The position numbers were made by a program, and so were the translations under genes. Below, in pieces: positions 25,583 to 34,692 of a stretch of DNA of 52,070 bases. The DNA is from an uncultured archaeon (GTDB lineage: Archaea; Thermoproteota; Nitrososphaeria; JACIWG01). The notes under the pieces were generated by a model. It was not told where the DNA came from, did no database searches, and saw nothing but the letters and a program-made list of their open reading frames with translations. Numbering within the stretch: position 1 is the stretch's first letter; every line of letters starts with the position of its first letter. Location: positions 1 through 52,070 of the forward strand of contig CALHLD010000003.1 of NCBI GenBank assembly GCA_938034445.1, given 5' to 3'.

Positions 25583-25999
25583 CTATTGCTTCTTTGCAGT
25601 CTCCCTTAAATATTCTTCGTAAATTTCTCTAACCCTAACCGTAGCAAGACCCGTTCCTTCAACACCCTTTTCTGTAACCTTAATCTTATCCATAACCAAT
25701 ATTGTACCAAGCTCCTCCATCAACTTAACATTATTTGGAAAATACTTTTCCAACCTCATGGCTAAAGCTTTTAAGTCAAAAAGTTTTTCAACCAACTCAA
25801 TTCTCTTAACAAAATTTCCATTTATAACAATCTTACTAACATTTTCGCCGCCAACAACATTACTTAATATTATGTTAAGAGTCTCGCTTATTCCAGAAAG
25901 CTCTCCACTAAACTTTAAACCATCAACAGTTTCAACAGTAACCTTCTTGCCCACCAAATTCGCCAATTCTTCAGCAAACTTTTTCCCAGCAATCGACAT
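25583..25999 (-). CDS. Lsm/SmAP protein with archaeal C-terminal domain (SmAP3-type)
   Basis: RNA-binding Sm-fold protein. Residues about 10-70 form an Sm1-Sm2 fold (VTVETVDGLKFSGELSGI, then NIILSNVV and IVINGNFVKRIEL). The last 65 residues match the alpha/beta C-terminal domain of crenarchaeal SmAP3. The 138-aa size agrees. It is upstream of tgtA with a 4-bp gap, suggesting co-expression with tRNA modification. It is divergent from the TFB gene across about 160 bp in which no gene was recognised. Confidence 0.88.
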   Translation of the reverse strand: MSIAGKKFAEELANLVGKKVTVETVDGLKFSGELSGISETLNIILSNVVGGENVSKIVINGNFVKRIELVEKLFDLKALAMRLEKYFPNNVKLMEELGTILVMDKIKVTEKGVEGTGLATVRVREIYEEYLRETAKKQ

Positions 26000-26162: not shown

Positions 26163-27092
26163 ATGGAAGAAAGTGTATGCCCACTTTGCAATAGTAGACT
26201 AGTACTAGTAGACGACGAACTAGTATGCGAATCCTGTGGATATGTTGCACAAGACACTAACATAATATCATCAGAATTTGGACAGAAAAAAACATCTTAC
26301 GAACTTGGAAGCCAAATAGGCTTCAAAAATCAATACTTGCAAGAAAATTTTTCTAGAATTGGAGAAAGTTCAAGCCTAAAATATTATAGGATGCTTTCAG
26401 AAAGGTGGCTGAAAACTGAAAGAGAAAATGAAGAATACTATTGTATGAAGGTTATCTCAAGAGTCTGTGAAAAACTGGCTATACCAGAAAATGTGGCAGT
26501 GTACGCTTTTGAATTTTCTAAGAGATTACTTTCTAAAAGGTTGGAGCATGAAGGCGTAACAGTTCCAATCGTATGCCTTTACGCTTTAATGATATCGTGT
26601 AAGAAATCAAAAATAGATAGAATTACAATGAAAAAACTTTTTAGAACATTTAGAACATTAGGATATCGTGTAAGCTTAGCTGCACTCGCAAAAGTCTCAT
26701 GCCTTACAAACACGGCGATTGAACCCAAACCCGTGGAAGAATATCTTACTACAATAATACCTTCAATAGCGACCAATCCGGTTGTTCTCGAGAGAGCGAA
26801 AAAATATTATCTTTCACCTGTAGAATATGAGAGAAAACTTTATCGTACAACTATAGCCATCTTATCTCATGTAGACAAGTATAGGAGGGGAGGGCATAAT
26901 CCTTACGCATTAGCTACTACAGCGGCATATGCGGGAGAAATCACAATATCTAAAATTGAACATAGACCACCACTATTCTCCCAACGTATAATATCAGAAA
27001 GTGTTGATGTCGCAGAGTATACTATAAGAGAACAGTATAGTGAACTTTTTAGAGAGGCAGTCAATAAGCTCCTGCACGATCTAGACAAGTGA
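26163..27092 (+). CDS. tfb: TFIIB-like transcription factor (divergent TFB paralogue)
   Basis: Archaeal general transcription factor B homologue. The zinc ribbon is CPLCNSRLVLVDDELVCESC, followed by a linker and two cyclin-like repeats (about 95-190 and 200-305), with NPYALATTAAYAGEI in the second repeat where TFB has the A-A-A-x-Y-x-A element. The first repeat and the B-reader region are poorly conserved, and the usual R-x-L-D motif after the ribbon is not evident. This is probably a secondary TFB with specialised promoters rather than the main one. Confidence 0.82.
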   Translation: MEESVCPLCNSRLVLVDDELVCESCGYVAQDTNIISSEFGQKKTSYELGSQIGFKNQYLQENFSRIGESSSLKYYRMLSERWLKTERENEEYYCMKVISRVCEKLAIPENVAVYAFEFSKRLLSKRLEHEGVTVPIVCLYALMISCKKSKIDRITMKKLFRTFRTLGYRVSLAALAKVSCLTNTAIEPKPVEEYLTTIIPSIATNPVVLERAKKYYLSPVEYERKLYRTTIAILSHVDKYRRGGHNPYALATTAAYAGEITISKIEHRPPLFSQRIISESVDVAEYTIREQYSELFREAVNKLLHDLDK

Positions 27093-27173: not shown

Positions 27174-27956
27174 CTATAATATTAAAACTCTTTCATAACA
27201 GAGATAAACCATGTTAGAGACACCATACATTAGAACACTTTCATATGGTATGGGATAGACTAGTCTATAGCTTATCATAATGGACAAGCCCTCGAAACCT
27301 ATATAATCTATAACAATCTGGCAGCCGGTGGAAGCATTTATCAACACATTTAATTCATAAACTAGGCTCATAATTTCGTCTAATGTAGAGTTGGAAGAAA
27401 GTGTTGAAGACATCAGACCTTCAAAAATCTCCTGCGCCATCCTAACACTGTTAAGAATTGAAGTAAAGTTAATATTGCATGAGACATAAAATGTGTCTTC
27501 ACCATGAACTTCAATACCGAACCTGTTTATGATACGATAATCTACTTTAGCATAGAACCTTGATCCAGAATATTCGTGGAACTCATACAACCTATTTCCA
27601 GAAAAACCTTTCAAAGAAAAGTGAACATGAAAGTAAACATAAAAAATTTCATCTTCATAAGATTCATAGAATATTTTATCATCAAAAATATTCAAGAACT
27701 CATCATAGGATATAAAGTTTTTTGAGAGCATTAAATCATCTATATACTTAAGTAATCTAATTGCAGCATTTATCTTACATTCTCTAACCTTAAATTTAGT
27801 AGCAAGAATATTTTCTTGAACAAGATAATATTCTATAATATGCCCTTTCACGTTCAAAATGGCTAGTGTACAAGAAAATAGTATAATAGAGATGATTAAA
27901 ACGGCTGTAGTTTGAACAACAGCCTTCCTACCACAAACTATTTTTGCATAAACCAA
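27174..27956 (-). CDS. Pilin-like secreted protein (260 aa), filament island
   Basis: No family recognised with certainty. A short basic leader (CGRKAVVQ) and one hydrophobic segment (TTAVLIISIILFSCTLAIL) sit at the N-terminus, as in archaeal type IV pilins and pseudopilins. The remaining 220 residues are a beta-rich extracellular part with a conserved-looking Asn/Ser stretch. It is the last of five overlapping reverse-strand genes, all encoding single-TM small proteins. Its start overlaps the 128-aa gene by 19 bp. It is probably a minor pilin or tip component of the secretion/filament machinery encoded divergently at 29.3-34.2 kb. Confidence 0.55.
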   Translation of the reverse strand: MVYAKIVCGRKAVVQTTAVLIISIILFSCTLAILNVKGHIIEYYLVQENILATKFKVRECKINAAIRLLKYIDDLMLSKNFISYDEFLNIFDDKIFYESYEDEIFYVYFHVHFSLKGFSGNRLYEFHEYSGSRFYAKVDYRIINRFGIEVHGEDTFYVSCNINFTSILNSVRMAQEIFEGLMSSTLSSNSTLDEIMSLVYELNVLINASTGCQIVIDYIGFEGLSIMISYRLVYPIPYESVLMYGVSNMVYLCYERVLIL

Positions 27957-28324
27957 ACCCTTAACACCATTCTAGAAGAATCCTTATACACCACAAGTTC
28001 AACAAAACCGCCAACAGAACTTCCGCCACCAACAGCATATCTTGAACCCATGAACTCTATCATGACAAGGGTTGAATCAAAGATCCTATTTTCTATCAAA
28101 AACCTTTTCAAAAGCCTACAGATATCACCTTTCTCAACCTCATAAAACAGTCTTGGTACACTAAACTCCTTTAATAAACTATCAACAATCTGGTAGGCCA
28201 TAACTTTATTACGATATTGAAGCTCGTACTCGCCTAAATTATACATGTAAAGGTTATTTATACACGCTAAGGAAAAAATTAGTATAACAATCATTGAGGA
28301 AACCTTATCTAAAAGATTATACAT
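27938..28324 (-). CDS. Pilin-like small protein (128 aa), filament island
   Basis: No known family. One hydrophobic helix spans about residues 10-28 near the N-terminus (SSMIVILIFSLACI), followed by a helical stalk and a Gly-rich beta region (YAVGGGSSVGG). Its ATG shares one base with the stop (TAATG) of the 43-aa gene before it, and its end overlaps the 260-aa gene, so it is translationally coupled to both. The layout suggests a minor pilin. Confidence 0.5.
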   Translation of the reverse strand: MYNLLDKVSSMIVILIFSLACINNLYMYNLGEYELQYRNKVMAYQIVDSLLKEFSVPRLFYEVEKGDICRLLKRFLIENRIFDSTLVMIEFMGSRYAVGGGSSVGGFVELVVYKDSSRMVLRVWFMQK

Positions 28325-28455
28325 TAGAGAACACCAAAAATCCAGCCTTCCAACCCTAAAACAACATTGTAGGCAAGTAAAACTAAAGTCAAAAAGGCCG
28401 TCAACACTAAAATAAGATACAATACTTCTACAACAAAATCGAAGATACTATTCAA
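28324..28455 (-). CDS. 43-aa single-span membrane microprotein
   Basis: A small frame exactly filling the gap between two filament-island genes. It starts at TTG 28455 inside a TTGA overlap with the stop of the 126-aa gene and ends with TAA overlapping the ATG of the 128-aa gene. The product (NSIFDFVVEVLYLILVL, then TAFLTLVLLA) is almost entirely a membrane helix. The tight stop-start overlaps on both sides argue that it is translated. Its size is similar to Flp/TadE-like or channel-lining small subunits; its function is unknown. Confidence 0.6.
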   Translation of the reverse strand: MNSIFDFVVEVLYLILVLTAFLTLVLLAYNVVLGLEGWIFGVL

Positions 28456-28832
28456 AAGCTGTTCACCATAATTTTACCATTAACTTTTGAAAATAAAATA
28501 GTCTCATAAAGTTTCACTTTCCGCTCATAAAATTCGACATCGTCACAGACCATTGAATAAAAAATTTTATCACCAAACATAATACCAATACTTCTACCAT
28601 CAGAATAAAAGACAGCATCCTTAAGTGTCAAATTCTCCAAAGAGAACTTTACACACATGCCCTCTTCAAGAGAAGAGCCAATATTTACAAAAATTTCCAA
28701 AACCTTTTTCGCCTCAACCACTTCACATAGGGTATAAAATTTTTGCAAGGGTATAGCTGTAGAAAGTATTATTAAACCTATCAGGAGATAGAAAGTAAAG
28801 CCTAAAGAGGACTCTACTACCTCAGACGGCAT
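28452..28832 (-). CDS. Pilin-like small protein (126 aa), filament island
   Basis: No known family. A hydrophobic helix near the N-terminus (FTFYLLIGLIILSTAI, about residues 12-27) is preceded by a short polar leader with Glu residues. The remaining 95 residues are mixed alpha/beta, with two Cys. It overlaps the upstream 130-aa gene by 11 bp and the 43-aa frame by 4 bp. It is the second of five co-directional genes. Confidence 0.5.
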   Translation of the reverse strand: MPSEVVESSLGFTFYLLIGLIILSTAIPLQKFYTLCEVVEAKKVLEIFVNIGSSLEEGMCVKFSLENLTLKDAVFYSDGRSIGIMFGDKIFYSMVCDDVEFYERKVKLYETILFSKVNGKIMVNSF

Positions 28833-29214
28833 CCTCGATCACTACAACTACAGAACTATCTTCTCCAATAACCAAAATCCTCACAAAATCACCACCTTTC
28901 CTTAAATCATCTACGATTATATCAAAATCGTAGACACCAACATACGCGACCCTACCGCCATAAAATATTTTCAAAACACTACCTTCAAAAAACATATTAA
29001 AATCCTTAGAAACAATATAGGAAAGAGAATATACACCTTTAGAGGCGCGGGACAGCTTTATTAATCTATCAACCTCCTTTGCCAGAATATTAAGTTGATC
29101 ATAAGATACACTATCACATATACGTGAAATTATATTTAAAATTGGAGGATAAATTGAGGCAGCTAACATCAGACTTAATCCTATAACTAGACATTTTTCA
29201 AAAACTTCAACCAT
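28822..29214 (-). CDS. Pilin-like small protein (130 aa), first gene of filament island
   Basis: No known family. One N-terminal hydrophobic helix (CLVIGLSLMLAASIYPPIL) is followed by an amphipathic stalk and a beta-rich domain (VLKIFYGGRVAYVGVYD). It heads the five-gene reverse-strand operon and is divergent from the TadA-like ATPase, with only 53 bp between the starts, so the two operons share a promoter region. Confidence 0.5.
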   Translation of the reverse strand: MVEVFEKCLVIGLSLMLAASIYPPILNIISRICDSVSYDQLNILAKEVDRLIKLSRASKGVYSLSYIVSKDFNMFFEGSVLKIFYGGRVAYVGVYDFDIIVDDLRKGGDFVRILVIGEDSSVVVVIEDAV

Positions 29215-29267
29215 ACTTTTCGTTTTAAAATGTTATTGGCGTATTTAAGCACAAACAACCTTCCTAT

Positions 29268-30812
29268 ATGATGCTCGTAAAAAAACTGTTTTTTAAAAAC
29301 AAAAATATTAGGACAGAAAACAGAACATTAAAACATTTTCTCATAGAATTATTTGATGAAGACTGTGAACAAGCTTATCTAGAAAATTATACGATAGAAT
29401 ATTTTGAAATATTGTTTAAAAGGTTTAATGGAAGAAACTTTTATCATATAAGGTGTTCTAAAAAGCTTCTCACATTAATAGAGAGAACATGTACGGTGTT
29501 TGATGAAATATTAGAAAATTCGAGTCTACTAGAGTTTGAGGAAATTTCCTTTAAATCGTTTATAGAAAACCTTTCAAAGCTCTTTTATTCTAGCATGAAA
29601 ACATTCACATTAAGTGAATGTGAAAGACAATTCCTAAGCAAATTATACGCTTTTGAGTTCATGAAAATTTCACGATTATTTCCCCTGCTAGTTGATGAAC
29701 ATGTTCAAGAATTTTATTTAGATTCACCATCTACTAGAATATATCTTGACCATGATAGATGGGGAAGATGTTTAACAAACGTAATTTTAACAGAAGAAGA
29801 AGTGCAGGCAATAAAAACACACGTACAGACTTTTAGTGGATACGCCCTAGATTATCTAACAAATTCTATAAAAACTGAATGGAACCTTAATAAAATAACT
29901 TATAGAATATCACTTGACACATTCCCGTTATCTCCAACAGGATTTAACATGGATGTTAGAAAGATATTTCCACAAACATACACACTTCCACAACTAATAC
30001 AATTTAAAATGCTTTCAAAAGAGATAGCCCTATTTCTCCTATTCTTCCTAAACTTTGGAAGAAACATTACAATAGTTGGTGAAACAAATTCTGGAAAGAC
30101 TACGCTTTTAAATGCACTAGACTTATTCCTTTCTCCAGAAAAAAGGAGAATATATGTAGAGGATGTGCAAGAATCCCTTGACCTCCTAAAATATGGTTAC
30201 CATCAAGCAAAGTACAAGGTTTCACCATATGATGTTGGCAGTAGAGGAAAAAAGTCTGTTGAGGTTACAAAAATTTTACACCGTTCACCAAACATCATAA
30301 TTTTAGGGGAAATACAGTCAGAAGAACATAGTAGAGCACTTTTCAATTCACTTTCCTCAGGAATAAGAGGAATGCAAACATTTCATGCAACTTCACCATA
30401 TCAGGCTTTCAGAAGGTGGATATTTTCTCACAAGATAGATCCAGTAAGCCTACTAGAACTTGACATTATTGTTTGCATGGGAAAAACACATGAGTTTCCA
30501 GTAAAAAGATTTATTTCAAGTGTGTACGAGGTTTTGCCAGCTGAAGAACGGAACATTTCACTAGAAAAGATTGGTTTTTCATTAAACGAAGTGTTCACAA
30601 GAGATGTGAATGAGGATTTTGTGAACCTAGTCCCCTTAGAGAACACCTACACTTTCAAAAAGCTTATGACATTATATTCTGAAAGCTACTTAAAAAGTTC
30701 TTACGAAAAAATGTGCAAAATTTTTGAACCAATTCTAGAAAAGAGTACGAGCTTTGAAACTCTTGTCAAAGACATTTCAAGCGCTTGGGTGAAGGTAAAG
30801 GATGCTTTCTAA
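29268..30812 (+). CDS. TadA/VirB11-like secretion ATPase
   Basis: Hexameric motor ATPase of type IV pilus/type II secretion systems. Walker A is GETNSGKT (residues 271-278). The Asp/Walker B region is NIIILGEIQSEEHSRALF, and the histidine box is FHATSPYQAF. The N-terminal 250 residues fit the TadA/archaellum FlaI-like N-terminal domain, though shorter conserved blocks there are weak. It energises assembly or export together with the two platform proteins immediately downstream (11-bp overlap with the first). Confidence 0.88.
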   Translation: MMLVKKLFFKNKNIRTENRTLKHFLIELFDEDCEQAYLENYTIEYFEILFKRFNGRNFYHIRCSKKLLTLIERTCTVFDEILENSSLLEFEEISFKSFIENLSKLFYSSMKTFTLSECERQFLSKLYAFEFMKISRLFPLLVDEHVQEFYLDSPSTRIYLDHDRWGRCLTNVILTEEEVQAIKTHVQTFSGYALDYLTNSIKTEWNLNKITYRISLDTFPLSPTGFNMDVRKIFPQTYTLPQLIQFKMLSKEIALFLLFFLNFGRNITIVGETNSGKTTLLNALDLFLSPEKRRIYVEDVQESLDLLKYGYHQAKYKVSPYDVGSRGKKSVEVTKILHRSPNIIILGEIQSEEHSRALFNSLSSGIRGMQTFHATSPYQAFRRWIFSHKIDPVSLLELDIIVCMGKTHEFPVKRFISSVYEVLPAEERNISLEKIGFSLNEVFTRDVNEDFVNLVPLENTYTFKKLMTLYSESYLKSSYEKMCKIFEPILEKSTSFETLVKDISSAWVKVKDAF

Positions 30813-31533
30813 AAATGAGTTAGCTAAAGCATATAGATATTTTGGAATCAACTTTAGAAGCTACATTTTAAAGTCCATGATCTTATCCTTAATACCTTCA
30901 ACACCAGTCTCACTCTACTTTCCATCAGAAAACACTTTCTTAAAGCTAGTAATATTTTTTATAATTTTAATAATGTGCAATTATCTTATCTTAACAGTTC
31001 CATACCTACTATTTTCACAACACGACTTTATAATTTCTCTATTCGGGTACCTAATATTATCGGACCTAAAGGTTATAACAAAATATTCATCATTATACGA
31101 CGCCTGTCTCCACGTATATAGGGCAAAGTATCCTATAATATCCCAAATGTTTAAGAAAATACTAGTTTCTGGGATAAGAGGATATGATATAAGGGAGGCC
31201 CTAAACCATCTCGCACAATCACAACCATCCCAATCTTTTAGAGAAGGTTTGCAGGCGCTGCTTCTAGAAAGAGGTTTTGAAAAAAACGAGTTTTACAAAA
31301 CTTACATTATAACCTACAACTCTTACAGGGAAATGACTTCAAAGATTGAAACAAAATTTTCTATTCTCATGGGATTATGCTTTTTTACTCCAATAGTATC
31401 CACCATTTTTATATCAATGTACATAAAAGATATACAATCAATTTTAATAATATTGTCTACAGCCATATTCCTTCTTTCAATATTATATCTTACACTAACA
31501 AGAAGCTTATACATCCATAAGGTGAGTGTATGA
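30802..31533 (+). CDS. Platform membrane protein, first half (TadB/GspF-like)
   Basis: Membrane scaffold for the secretion ATPase. Two hydrophobic segments lie near the N-terminus (about 15-40 and 48-72), then a cytoplasmic helical domain of about 100 residues, then two C-terminal segments (about 185-205 and 212-232). This is the topology of one T2SSF repeat. It overlaps the ATPase gene by 11 bp and the second platform gene by 4 bp (ATGA). In FlaJ-type systems both repeats are in one polypeptide; here they are separate genes. The family call rests on topology and context. Confidence 0.7.
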   Translation: MLSKNELAKAYRYFGINFRSYILKSMILSLIPSTPVSLYFPSENTFLKLVIFFIILIMCNYLILTVPYLLFSQHDFIISLFGYLILSDLKVITKYSSLYDACLHVYRAKYPIISQMFKKILVSGIRGYDIREALNHLAQSQPSQSFREGLQALLLERGFEKNEFYKTYIITYNSYREMTSKIETKFSILMGLCFFTPIVSTIFISMYIKDIQSILIILSTAIFLLSILYLTLTRSLYIHKVSV

Positions 31534-32165
31534 AGCCTTTTGTAAATAGGGATAAAGTTTCATTTGATGAACTACTATTTTTAGAAAAAATTTCGAAAAA
31601 GATGGTCGATGGCCTTTCACTTGAGAGAGCAATGTTTGAGGTTCTAATGGAACCATACTTTAAACCCTTCAAAAATAGGCTTAAACAGTTGGTTAGAGGA
31701 GAAGATTCTAAGAAGATTCTAGAAAACCTTCCATTTAAGACAAGTTTACCTAAATATGTTTCTGATATAAACAAGATAAGGTCCATTTTTGCGGGAAATG
31801 TTTTGAATGAAATTGTAAACATAATCTTGTTGAATAGGAGATGCCAAAGGGAACGCATGCTACTCTTAGACATCCTCCACCATAGAAGTATGATTGTCAC
31901 ACTACTTTTGGGAATAGCGCTTTCTTTCCTATCTCAAATGGCACCACTATTTTCTATAATAATGGATTTTACGCCAAAAATCCAAATTGATCATAGTATT
32001 GTAAACGAAACAGTCTACTTTTCTTTCATTCTAGGATTATTTTCATCATTCCTACAAAATCTACTATTTGGTAAAAAGAGAACTCTAATAGCGGTAATAG
32101 TGTACATTCTATCATACTTGATTGGCTTAAACCTTTCGAAGCCAATCCTACACCTCCTACCTTAA
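31530..32165 (+). CDS. Platform membrane protein, second half (TadC/GspF-like)
   Basis: It begins directly with a cytoplasmic helical domain (about 1-120; SFDELLFLEKISKKMVDGLS resembles the start of a T2SSF domain) followed by two or three membrane segments (about 125-150, 165-180 and 185-205). Together with the preceding protein it makes up a full two-repeat platform. It shares an ATGA overlap with its partner, so equal amounts are expected. Confidence 0.7.
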   Translation: MKPFVNRDKVSFDELLFLEKISKKMVDGLSLERAMFEVLMEPYFKPFKNRLKQLVRGEDSKKILENLPFKTSLPKYVSDINKIRSIFAGNVLNEIVNIILLNRRCQRERMLLLDILHHRSMIVTLLLGIALSFLSQMAPLFSIIMDFTPKIQIDHSIVNETVYFSFILGLFSSFLQNLLFGKKRTLIAVIVYILSYLIGLNLSKPILHLLP

Positions 32166-32211
32166 AGCTAGGATTGTAGAATTTAGTTGAATGTAGTAAA
32201 AATGGTGGTGA

Positions 32212-32220
32212 TTATATAAG
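32212..32220 (+). promoter_or_regulatory. TATA box of the 63-aa pilin-like gene
   Basis: TTATATAAG is centred about 32 nt before the TTG at 32248. This predicts a separate, almost leaderless transcript for the pilin-like protein, as expected for an abundant filament subunit. Confidence 0.5.
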
Positions 32221-32247
32221 ATCTTAACATGATTGTCGGTGTTAAAG

Positions 32248-32439
32248 TTGAAGAAAAGAAGGCATGCCGTTCAATTGGTTGAAGAGGCGATACTTATTTC
32301 TGTAGTACTTGTAATCTTAACCCTTGTAATGGGCGGTGTTGAGTCTGTCTTAAACAAGATTTCTGAGATGACATCAAGTTTATGGGATACAATATCAAAG
32401 TCCATAGAAGACCTTTTTGGCTTCCTCTGGAAATGGTAG
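32248..32439 (+). CDS. Small pilin-like protein (63 aa)
   Basis: Candidate major filament subunit. A basic leader KKRRHAVQLVEEA, with Glu shortly after the cleavage-type site, is followed by a hydrophobic helix (ILISVVLVILTLVMGGV) and a short amphipathic tail ending FGFLWKW. This matches Flp/type IV pilin architecture, including a likely prepilin peptidase site around RRHA-V. The frame is open from TTG 32233, but TTG 32248 follows GGTG by 6 nt and sits at the right distance from a TATA box. VirB2/TrbC-like conjugation pilins are the alternative, given the HerA-like gene next door. Confidence 0.65.
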   Translation: MKKRRHAVQLVEEAILISVVLVILTLVMGGVESVLNKISEMTSSLWDTISKSIEDLFGFLWKW

Positions 32440-32445
32440 ACTATA

Positions 32446-34173
32446 ATGTTAGAAATTTTAGATAAAAAGTATGCCTGTGTTAAAAAGGATGGTAAGGTTA
32501 GAGTCTATGCTATAGTAAGTTTGAAGCCAAAAAACATGTACAATAGCAAGAATATTGAGACGTCTTCAGCCGAGATTCTTGTATCTTATAAGAAGGCTAT
32601 AGGATTTTTTGAAGGAATATATAAGGCGGGTATACCTCTATACTACCTAGTTTCTATAGTTCCAAGACCTCAACCAATTCTAAAGAAAATGGTCACATTC
32701 TTAAAAAATGGGGAAACAAACAGTGAGCCAATGTTCGAGCAGTCAATTTATGCAATAACATGGGTTGATGGAAAAACGTCTAAACTTGAAAATCTTAAGG
32801 CAAAGATTGAGGAAAGATGTAAGATACTGTGCACAGCCTTAAGTGTAGGATACGAAAATTTTATTCCAGAAAATGTTCAAGGTTCAAAACTTGAACATTT
32901 TATAAAATCTATTACAGTACCAGAGTATGAGTTAGAGAAGGTTGAAAATGTAGGTTCCAGTAGGCTCCCGTTTACTTTAGCTTATTCACCATCTATACCC
33001 ACCCAGTATAGTGGAGAGAATATTCCACAATTTTATATTCCAAACTTTGAAGAATCAGGTTCTGGAGGAATATATTTAGGCTACTTGAAATCTACTGAAG
33101 GAAACCTACATAAATTCTATTTAAGGGAAGACGATATCCTACAACATGTTTGTGTAATCGGGATGACCGGTTCAGGGAAATCGACAACATGTAAAGTTAT
33201 ACTTTCACAGCTTATAAGGATGGGGAAGAAGGTGATGGTCTTAGACTGGCATAATGAATATGGTTCATTTTTCAAAGAAATGGGATGCAATGTTGTTAGT
33301 GCAGGAAAAGATGATTCCTTTGTACTGAATCCATTGGACGCAATTAATGTTAAGGATATTTATGAGCACATTGCACTAATAACTGACATATTCGCTGAAG
33401 TATACAGATTTACAAGTCCACAAACATTCACATTCAGAAATGCTCTCGTGAACCTATATGGGGATAGTCCTAAAACATTTTCAAGGTCTCCAATACTATC
33501 AAATCTTGTAGACTATATTGAACAGAATCCTGCAAGGTCAATGTATGATAATGAAACAAAGACAGCGATACTTAGAAGACTACTTCCACTAACACAAGGT
33601 CAGGCAGGTAACTTACTTAATGGAGAAAATACGTTTTCTATGCAAACACTTTTATCTGAAAACGTTTGCATAGAGTTAGGGCATCTAAGGGATTTTGAAA
33701 CAAGGATAATATTTTCATCAATACTATTGAAAATGATATACGACTTTAGACTACTTTCTGGACCATCCAAACTAGATCATGTTACAGTTGTAGAAGAAGC
33801 ACGTTCTATAGTTCCAGCAAGAAGACTAGAAGATCCCCCATCGATAGGAGAAAAGATGGTTTCAGAACTTAGAAAATTTGGAGAGAGAATGATTTTTGTA
33901 GCACAATATCCTACACAAATTTCCTCCGAAATTATAAAAAATTGTGGACTAAGAATCATACATAGAGTTTCATGGATGGAAGATATACGTATACTAAAAG
34001 AAACTTTAGGCTTAAAAAGTGAACAAGCAGATTTCCTATCACTGCTTAAGACTGGAGAAGCTATAGTAAGTATTGGAAGAATACGCGCCCCATTTCTAAT
34101 GCAAGTTGACTCTTCAGTAGTAGGAGTCGGGGAAGAACCTTCTCAAGTCACCCCTTTCGGAGACAAGCTGTAG
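32446..34173 (+). CDS. HerA/VirB4-like ATPase of the filament island
   Basis: Hexameric translocase of the HerA-FtsK superfamily. Residues 1-230 are a non-ATPase N-terminal region without obvious membrane helices. Walker A is GMTGSGKST (239-247), followed by VLDWHNEYG. The Walker B-like element is VTVVEEARSIVP, with a later FVAQYPTQISSEI sensor segment. There is no NurA or Mre11/Rad50 neighbour, so the DNA-repair HerA role is less likely. CedB/TedB-type DNA-import or VirB4-like functions fit the adjacent pilin and TadA-like motor. It starts 6 bp after the pilin stop, and its last 60 bp overlap the convergent AK6 gene. Confidence 0.75.
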   Translation: MLEILDKKYACVKKDGKVRVYAIVSLKPKNMYNSKNIETSSAEILVSYKKAIGFFEGIYKAGIPLYYLVSIVPRPQPILKKMVTFLKNGETNSEPMFEQSIYAITWVDGKTSKLENLKAKIEERCKILCTALSVGYENFIPENVQGSKLEHFIKSITVPEYELEKVENVGSSRLPFTLAYSPSIPTQYSGENIPQFYIPNFEESGSGGIYLGYLKSTEGNLHKFYLREDDILQHVCVIGMTGSGKSTTCKVILSQLIRMGKKVMVLDWHNEYGSFFKEMGCNVVSAGKDDSFVLNPLDAINVKDIYEHIALITDIFAEVYRFTSPQTFTFRNALVNLYGDSPKTFSRSPILSNLVDYIEQNPARSMYDNETKTAILRRLLPLTQGQAGNLLNGENTFSMQTLLSENVCIELGHLRDFETRIIFSSILLKMIYDFRLLSGPSKLDHVTVVEEARSIVPARRLEDPPSIGEKMVSELRKFGERMIFVAQYPTQISSEIIKNCGLRIIHRVSWMEDIRILKETLGLKSEQADFLSLLKTGEAIVSIGRIRAPFLMQVDSSVVGVGEEPSQVTPFGDKL

Positions 34174-34692
34174 CCAGTCTATACTGAGACCATCAAACCT
34201 TCTAACCTTATTTAAAGCTTCAAGAGCGTCGTTTAAAACTTCTTTAACAGATTTTTTAGAAGTGTCTATAACATGAATCTTTTCCAACCCAAATTTTTTT
34301 AATGCTTCAAAGTAGCAGGTGCCCAAAATTTCGGAGCCCACATTCATTAAAACCTTCTTTTCAGGATAGCCTCTTCTTTTTAATCGTTCCTCTAAAATAT
34401 AAGGATTACATCTAAGAACTATAACTAAGTCCAACTGTTTAGAGGAAACAACATGGGGCAGTAGGTGGCCTACTAGAATAAAATTTTCAGACAATATAAG
34501 ATTGGAAATTATTTTCTTAAGCTTATTAGTGTCAGCTATTATACCATAAACGTCTCTACCAACGACGACACCCTGTAGCAAACACACTTTGTTTATGTTA
34601 ATGACCCTATAGCCTGTCACTTTAGAAAGAGCCTTAGCTAAAGTCTTTTTGCCCGTTGCAGGAGTACCTGTCACACCTATCCTATTAAACAA
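34114..34692 (-). CDS. AK6/Fap7-type adenylate kinase-like NTPase
   Basis: Small P-loop NTPase of the hCINAP/Fap7 family, needed in eukaryotes and archaea for late small-subunit rRNA maturation through S11. P-loop GTPATGKKT (9-17); nucleotide lid region RCNPYILEERLKRRGYPEKKV; later IDTSKKSVKEV. The length of 192 aa is slightly above the family norm, and the extra C-terminal 20 residues fall in the 60-bp overlap with the HerA-like gene. It lies downstream of the small zinc-ribbon gene in the same direction. Confidence 0.85.
   Translation of the reverse strand: MFNRIGVTGTPATGKKTLAKALSKVTGYRVININKVCLLQGVVVGRDVYGIIADTNKLKKIISNLILSENFILVGHLLPHVVSSKQLDLVIVLRCNPYILEERLKRRGYPEKKVLMNVGSEILGTCYFEALKKFGLEKIHVIDTSKKSVKEVLNDALEALNKVRRFDGLSIDWLQLVSERGDLRRFFPDSYY

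Follow-up and report, generated by a model that had tools for sequence, protein, structure and literature searches.

An Epd/Tad-type pilus operon with a CedD-like ATPase conserved across families of Thermoproteota

Gene content of the pilus locus

The window analyzed here comprises the 52,070 bp of contig 3 from an archaeal draft assembly of 1.8 Mb (G000), and it contains a locus in which pilus genes stand together with a gene encoding a HerA/VirB4-type ATPase similar to CedD, an ATPase needed for DNA import in Saccharolobus. AmoA was found in 24 of 61 genomes of the class, all belonging to family f3, and in none from the family of the window; the class is thus taken as Nitrososphaeria, which includes ammonia oxidisers, and the lineage as one of its non-ammonia-oxidising members.

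The plus-strand operon encodes a TadA-like motor, two proteins with three predicted transmembrane (TM) helices each, a pilin, and the HerA/VirB4-type ATPase, with overlaps between the TadA and TadB genes and between the TadB and TadC genes. The minus-strand operon consists of five open reading frames (ORFs) for single-TM proteins of 130, 126, 43, 128, and 260 aa. All of the reported genes, namely those for the TadA-like motor, the platform pair, the small pilin, the HerA-like ATPase, and the five single-TM proteins, were present where the original prediction had placed them, and the gap that it had given for the two divergent operons is exactly 53 bp. The features are as follows.

29268..30812, plus strand: TadA/ArlI-type pilus motor ATPase, Walker A motif GETNSGKT
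30802..31533, plus strand: TadB-like platform protein, assigned by position, size, and three TM helices, with T2SSF in relatives
31530..32165, plus strand: TadC-like platform protein, assigned on the same grounds
32233..32439, plus strand: Flp-like pilin, RRHA before and VQLVEEAILIS after the predicted cleavage site, Glu at +5 in the pilin alignment
32446..34173, plus strand: CedD-like HerA/VirB4-type ATPase, assigned by family match, N-terminal profile, and chromosomal address
29215..29267, no strand: 53-bp divergent promoter region, TATTTAAG conserved in L036 and L039
28822..29214, minus strand: 130-aa single-TM protein, possible minor pilin by comparison with the loci of relatives
28452..28832, minus strand: 126-aa single-TM protein, possible minor pilin by the same comparison, weak matches in f39, f50, and f52
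28324..28455, minus strand: 43-aa single-TM protein with TTG start, counterparts of 45 aa in L036, 39 aa in L039, and 43 aa in f15
27938..28324, minus strand: 128-aa single-TM protein, possible minor pilin by comparison with the loci of relatives
27174..27956, minus strand: 260-aa single-TM protein, probable minor pilin, class III-like start GRKAVVQTTAVLII, orthologues in f1 and f4
26163..27092, plus strand: divergent TFB (TFIIB) paralogue at the block edge, in its own tree group
25583..25999, minus strand: Lsm (Sm-like) protein, a conserved flank found in most loci whether or not the pilus block is present
34114..34692, minus strand: adenylate-kinase-like (AK) NTPase, conserved flank, PF13238 (9.8e-19)

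The 43-aa ORF is smaller than the threshold of the original ORF list, yet it has counterparts in sister genomes. Proteins resembling the 260-aa protein are encoded at the corresponding position in further families, and the AK gene adjoins CedD in loci both with and without the pilus block. In the divergent intergenic region, GTATTTAAGCA is kept across the genus and family and is likely a core promoter element.

Conservation of the locus in Thermoproteota

In 13 families of Thermoproteota, genes for TadA, the pilin, and a CedD-like protein occupy a single locus. This locus usually reads Tgt, Lsm, TFB, single-TM genes, TadA, TadB, TadC, Flp, CedD, AK, and thermosome, an arrangement shared by f1, f2, and f4 within the class and by f13, f15, f16, f26, f35, f39, f45, f50, f52, and f56 outside it. 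Partial blocks were identified in f8 (within the class), f14, and f40, those of f8 and f40 being located at contig ends. Because this arrangement is preserved even in relatives with as little as approximately 25-35% protein identity, chance can be excluded. The block is old, maintained across the phylum apparently by vertical inheritance, and is not a local hybrid; the original prediction had considered that it might be a hybrid machine.

When 54 genomes were searched with a profile of the locus TadA, 18 genomes of the class scored 250-621 bits and all other TadA-type ATPases scored 210 bits or less. A CedD-like gene was present in all 18 of these genomes; a relative with TadA and no HerA-like gene nearby, which the original prediction had named as contrary evidence, was therefore not found among them. 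Conversely, class genomes without CedD also lacked the locus TadA, and neither gene occurred in any sampled genome of f5, f6, or f7.

The pilin and CedD genes are especially closely linked, with a spacing of -16 to +54 nt in 39 of 41 loci and an overlap in several; the two remaining loci have a split or broken CedD. Sulfolobaceae and others lack the pilus part, but the address of CedD is kept there; in lineages without pilus genes, CedD is still flanked by Lsm/Tgt and AK/thermosome.

Some loci deviate in form, among them L117:8473-10207, L079:664-2469, L116, and L129. CedD is represented by two genes in some lineages: in f50, by one for the TM hairpin and N-terminal region and one for the ATPase, and in f12, by an ATPase of 336-351 aa that follows small genes of approximately 115 aa. 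Two genomes of f39 have an ATPase frame that starts only after Walker A, so that CedD may be broken or split there. Additionally, a pilin-CedD pair of f14 (L112:5545-8000) adjoins a Tgt-like gene, with no TadA beside the pair on the contig.

Identity of the HerA/VirB4-type ATPase

The best Pfam match of the ATPase was the HerA central domain (PF01935, 2.6e-19), and its best NCBIfam match was CedD (NF053655, 8.2e-52, 176.5 bits), followed at a distance by VirB4 (65 bits) and HerA (52 bits), so that CedD led every other family by approximately 110 bits. The CedD model also matched all 17 aligned CedD-like proteins, the best at 1.5e-73. In profile comparisons with hhalign, the N-terminal domain matched that of Sulfolobaceae CedD with 96.0% probability over 202 columns and that of CedB with 94.7%, while HerA reached 0.4%. 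Sulfolobaceae CedD has an N-terminal TM hairpin in common with the majority of Tad-linked proteins of f13, f15, f26, and f52.

In trees of the ATPase domain, the NurA-linked HerA proteins were separate with support of 99/96, and a clade uniting CedD with the Tad-linked proteins was not rejected (approximately unbiased test, AU, p 0.32). Two other ATPase groups fall between CedD and the Tad-linked proteins in the best tree, and for this reason orthology to CedD is not established by the tree on its own. Taken with the best family match, the homology of the N-terminal domain, and the shared chromosomal address, these data indicate that the ATPase is a probable orthologue of CedD; much of this argument is carried by chromosomal position. 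The data support the proposal that the genes for motor, pilin, and HerA/VirB4-type ATPase belong together as a single genetic unit, with the ATPase belonging to the Ced ATPases and nearest to CedD.

A second HerA/VirB4-like ATPase of 497 aa is encoded on contig 53 of the same genome (L054:3748-5241), and closely related proteins occur in G002 and G003. This ATPase groups with the Tad-linked CedD proteins in the ATPase tree with weak support, and an intein-bearing RtcB gene was identified on the same contig.

Motor, platform, and pilin

The TadA-like protein matched PF00437 above the cut-off (2.2e-13), and the nearest structures to its family profile were 2oap (1e-48), FlaI (3e-45), and CpaF (3e-36). 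The platform pair consists of adjacent genes for proteins of 243 and 211 aa. T2SSF was recognized in 4 of 18 proteins of the TadC alignment (best 9.9e-5) and in 2 of 15 of the TadB alignment (best 0.02), and a two-domain platform matched the profile of the locus platform weakly. As T2SSF is recognizable in some relatives only, the platform assignment leans also on position, size, and topology. The original prediction had regarded the split platform as unusual; the two adjacent genes are real, but there is nothing anomalous in the arrangement, since two single-domain platform genes are usual for Tad and Epd pili (PMC6668835).

The start codon of the pilin is ambiguous (TTG at 32233, GTG at 32239, or TTG at 32248), giving 68, 66, or 63 aa, so that the 63-aa form first reported is one of three. 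Class III pilins are marked by Glu at +5 after cleavage. The 28 aligned locus pilins have a basic N-terminus followed by G/A before the predicted cleavage site and x-Q/P-L/I-x-E-E after it, with both Glu residues invariant, and the pilin of one relative matched Flp_Fap (0.0034). Judged by this pattern, the locus pilin is a very short class III-type, Flp-like pilin. A GGTGATTATATA-like sequence upstream of the pilin is kept in four genomes, which makes the promoter of its own that had been ascribed to this gene plausible.

A prepilin peptidase (Peptidase_A24) is located within the locus in f39 and is also present in G017. Additionally, a 196-aa six-TM protein (L124:4093-4683) occupies the position of the f39 prepilin peptidase; this protein, which matched no Pfam family, may be a diverged peptidase. 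We found no ORF for a TadZ/FlaH accessory ATPase in the block, where the CedD-like protein is the sole second ATPase.

TFB paralogue at the block edge

The TFB gene flanking the block encodes a divergent protein (PF00382, 2.6e-5), and canonical TFBs are present elsewhere in the same genome. In the TFB tree, 30 locus TFBs formed one group (97/94) separate from 30 canonical TFBs. In Saccharolobus islandicus, a DNA-damaging agent raises expression of Tfb3 (SiRe_1717) 25-fold (PMC10470591), and Tfb3 is two locus tags away from CedD (SiRe_1715, PMC11868833). Additionally, a TFB3-like gene for a protein of 180-195 aa adjoins thermosome and CedD in three genera of Sulfolobaceae, where Lsm and Tgt lie within the same 19 kb:

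L130:7477-8064: TFB3-like gene, Sulfolobaceae
L131:11729-12271: TFB3-like gene, Sulfolobaceae
L132:12522-13082: TFB3-like gene, Sulfolobaceae

These results suggest that the neighbourhood of TFB and CedD is old. Sulfolobaceae TFB3 is short and long-branched and falls outside both the locus TFB group and the canonical TFBs. On the basis of position, the sequences being too short and fast-evolving, TFB3 and the locus TFB may derive from one ancestral neighbour of CedD.

Comparison with known systems

The locus resembles those of the Epd (EppA-dependent) pilus of Methanococcus and the bacterial Tad pilus in that it encodes a TadA-like motor, a pair of small platform-like proteins from neighbouring genes, a class III-type pilin of very short length, and several small single-TM pilin-like proteins. 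Unlike these, it has a CedD-type ATPase and no TadZ/FlaH, a TFB paralogue at its edge, the motor gene first with the platform genes behind it, and extremely diverged platform sequences.

With the Ced system of Sulfolobales (CedA, CedA1, CedB, and CedD) and its Ups pilus, the locus shares an ATPase of the CedD type that agrees in N-terminal domain and in chromosomal address, a TFB paralogue nearby, and a type IV filament partner. Here, however, pilus and CedD are encoded in one operon, the pilus is Tad/Epd-like, CedB is missing from the genome, and the window ATPase has no N-terminal TM hairpin. As in Thermoproteales Ted and VirB type IV secretion, an ATPase of the VirB4/HerA superfamily lies beside a small pilin gene, whereas our locus also has a TadA motor and a platform pair. 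A system of the Ted/VirB type was ruled out, as the locus pilin is a one-TM, Flp-like protein with Glu at +5 and not a two-TM, VirB2/CedA1-like protein.

Functional interpretation

The simplest interpretation of an Epd/Tad-like pilus and a CedD-type ATPase in one operon is a machine for the uptake or exchange of DNA. CedD of S. islandicus is essential for DNA import and not for export (available text of PMC11868833), and a transposon screen of M. maripaludis for transformation defects recovered epdJ, epdK, epdL, and eppA (PMC10133366). The gene set and its conservation, the relationship of the ATPase to CedD, and the close pairing of the pilin and CedD genes are established by the data. Beyond this, we infer with a probability of roughly one half that the locus is an ancient Epd/Tad-type pilus operon of Thermoproteota, apparently passed on vertically, in which the second ATPase, a probable CedD orthologue, is a dedicated DNA translocase that probably serves DNA uptake. 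In such a machine, TadA and the two platform proteins would assemble a thin pilus of the Flp-like pilin, and the single-TM proteins would be minor or tip subunits. The pilus would bind DNA or a partner cell, and a ring of the CedD-like ATPase at its base would pull DNA into the cytoplasm, while the adjacent TFB paralogue could set the timing of production, perhaps in response to DNA damage. Sulfolobaceae and their relatives would have lost the pilus part, and their CedD would now partner Ced and Ups.

Several observations weigh against this interpretation. The CedD score of 176.5 bits is far under the curated cut-off of 600 bits, and the N-terminal TM hairpin of Sulfolobaceae CedD is absent in the window protein and its class, which leaves the membrane attachment of that protein unexplained. 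No CedB was found in the window's genome; among 28 genomes tested, CedB matches above the curated cut-off were restricted to Sulfolobaceae. A prepilin peptidase was likewise not detected in this genome, the locus TFB does not group with TFB3 by sequence, and the AlphaFold models were poor (CedD, pLDDT 52 from a 3-sequence alignment; TadC, pLDDT 53 from a single sequence).

The main competing explanation is that the ATPase works on the pilin and not on DNA, by VirB4-like extraction or insertion at the membrane or in pilus dynamics, filling the role of TadZ/FlaH in an adhesion pilus. VirB4 in the assembly of conjugative pili is thought to act on pilin, and the CedD gene lies directly 3' of the pilin gene in nearly all loci, although many members of the FtsK-HerA superfamily, which includes the CedD-like ATPase, pump DNA. 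Tad and Epd loci have a secondary ATPase beside the motor (available text of PMC6668835), of which there is no other here, and the N-terminal domain is CedB/VirB4-like both in our profile match and in the available text of PMC11868833; Sulfolobaceae CedD, however, is needed for DNA import without such a pilin or TadA at its site (same source). We consider this explanation unlikely. It is less probable still that two modules without functional coupling share one old address, with a pilus operon beside CedD in a cluster of housekeeping genes. That address is indeed the same in lineages without pilus genes, and Lsm, Tgt, AK, and thermosome all have housekeeping roles, but the adjacency of pilin and CedD with short overlaps in many families, the finding that TadA and CedD occur together within the class, and their joint absence from f5, f6, and f7 argue for coupling.

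The two remaining alternatives concern the substrate and the identity of the ATPase. VirB4-type ATPases of type IV secretion usually export, and the machine might export proteins, or pass DNA to a partner as in conjugation, instead of importing it; the block showed no gene resembling VirB6, VirD4, or a relaxase, and CedD functions in import and not in export (PMC11868833), so that export appears quite improbable. The idea that a repair HerA lies by chance beside a pilus operon is the most improbable and was rejected. The window ATPase shares the HerA central domain, its best Pfam match, with NurA-linked HerA, but it branches apart, has an N-terminal domain that is not that of HerA, had no HAS-barrel match, and has no NurA partner at the locus; the genome carries its own NurA-HerA-Mre11-Rad50 operon on contig 6. 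Clustering with NurA-linked HerA, which the original prediction had set against its reading, was not seen.

Significance

The new element of the locus is the ATPase in the pilus operon, not the split platform. The operon is not mentioned in the available text of an archaeal pilus census (PMC4858521), a filament phylogeny (PMC6668835), the Ced/Ted pilus paper (PMC9905601), or the CedD paper (PMC11868833), and a keyword search of the literature other than subscription papers and preprints found no other description of it. In methanogens, natural transformation requires pili, but no motor for the passage of DNA through the membrane is known and no homologues of ComEC have been found; more generally, the archaeal DNA transporter is unknown (PMC10133366). 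The operon described here names a candidate DNA motor for many lineages of Thermoproteota. CedD, so far described as an isolated gene of Sulfolobales and their relatives, can be traced to a likely evolutionary origin within a pilus operon, with a TFB paralogue placed beside it.

As a tentative extension, to which we give somewhat less than even odds, the block could represent an undescribed archaeal competence machine, ancestral in Thermoproteota, with an Epd/Tad-type pilus, a CedD-like translocase at its base, and a dedicated TFB, of which CedD and possibly TFB3 of Sulfolobales would be leftovers. Taken together, the pairing of pilus and CedD, conserved over many archaeal families, suggests an ancient and so far undescribed pilus with a putative role in DNA uptake.

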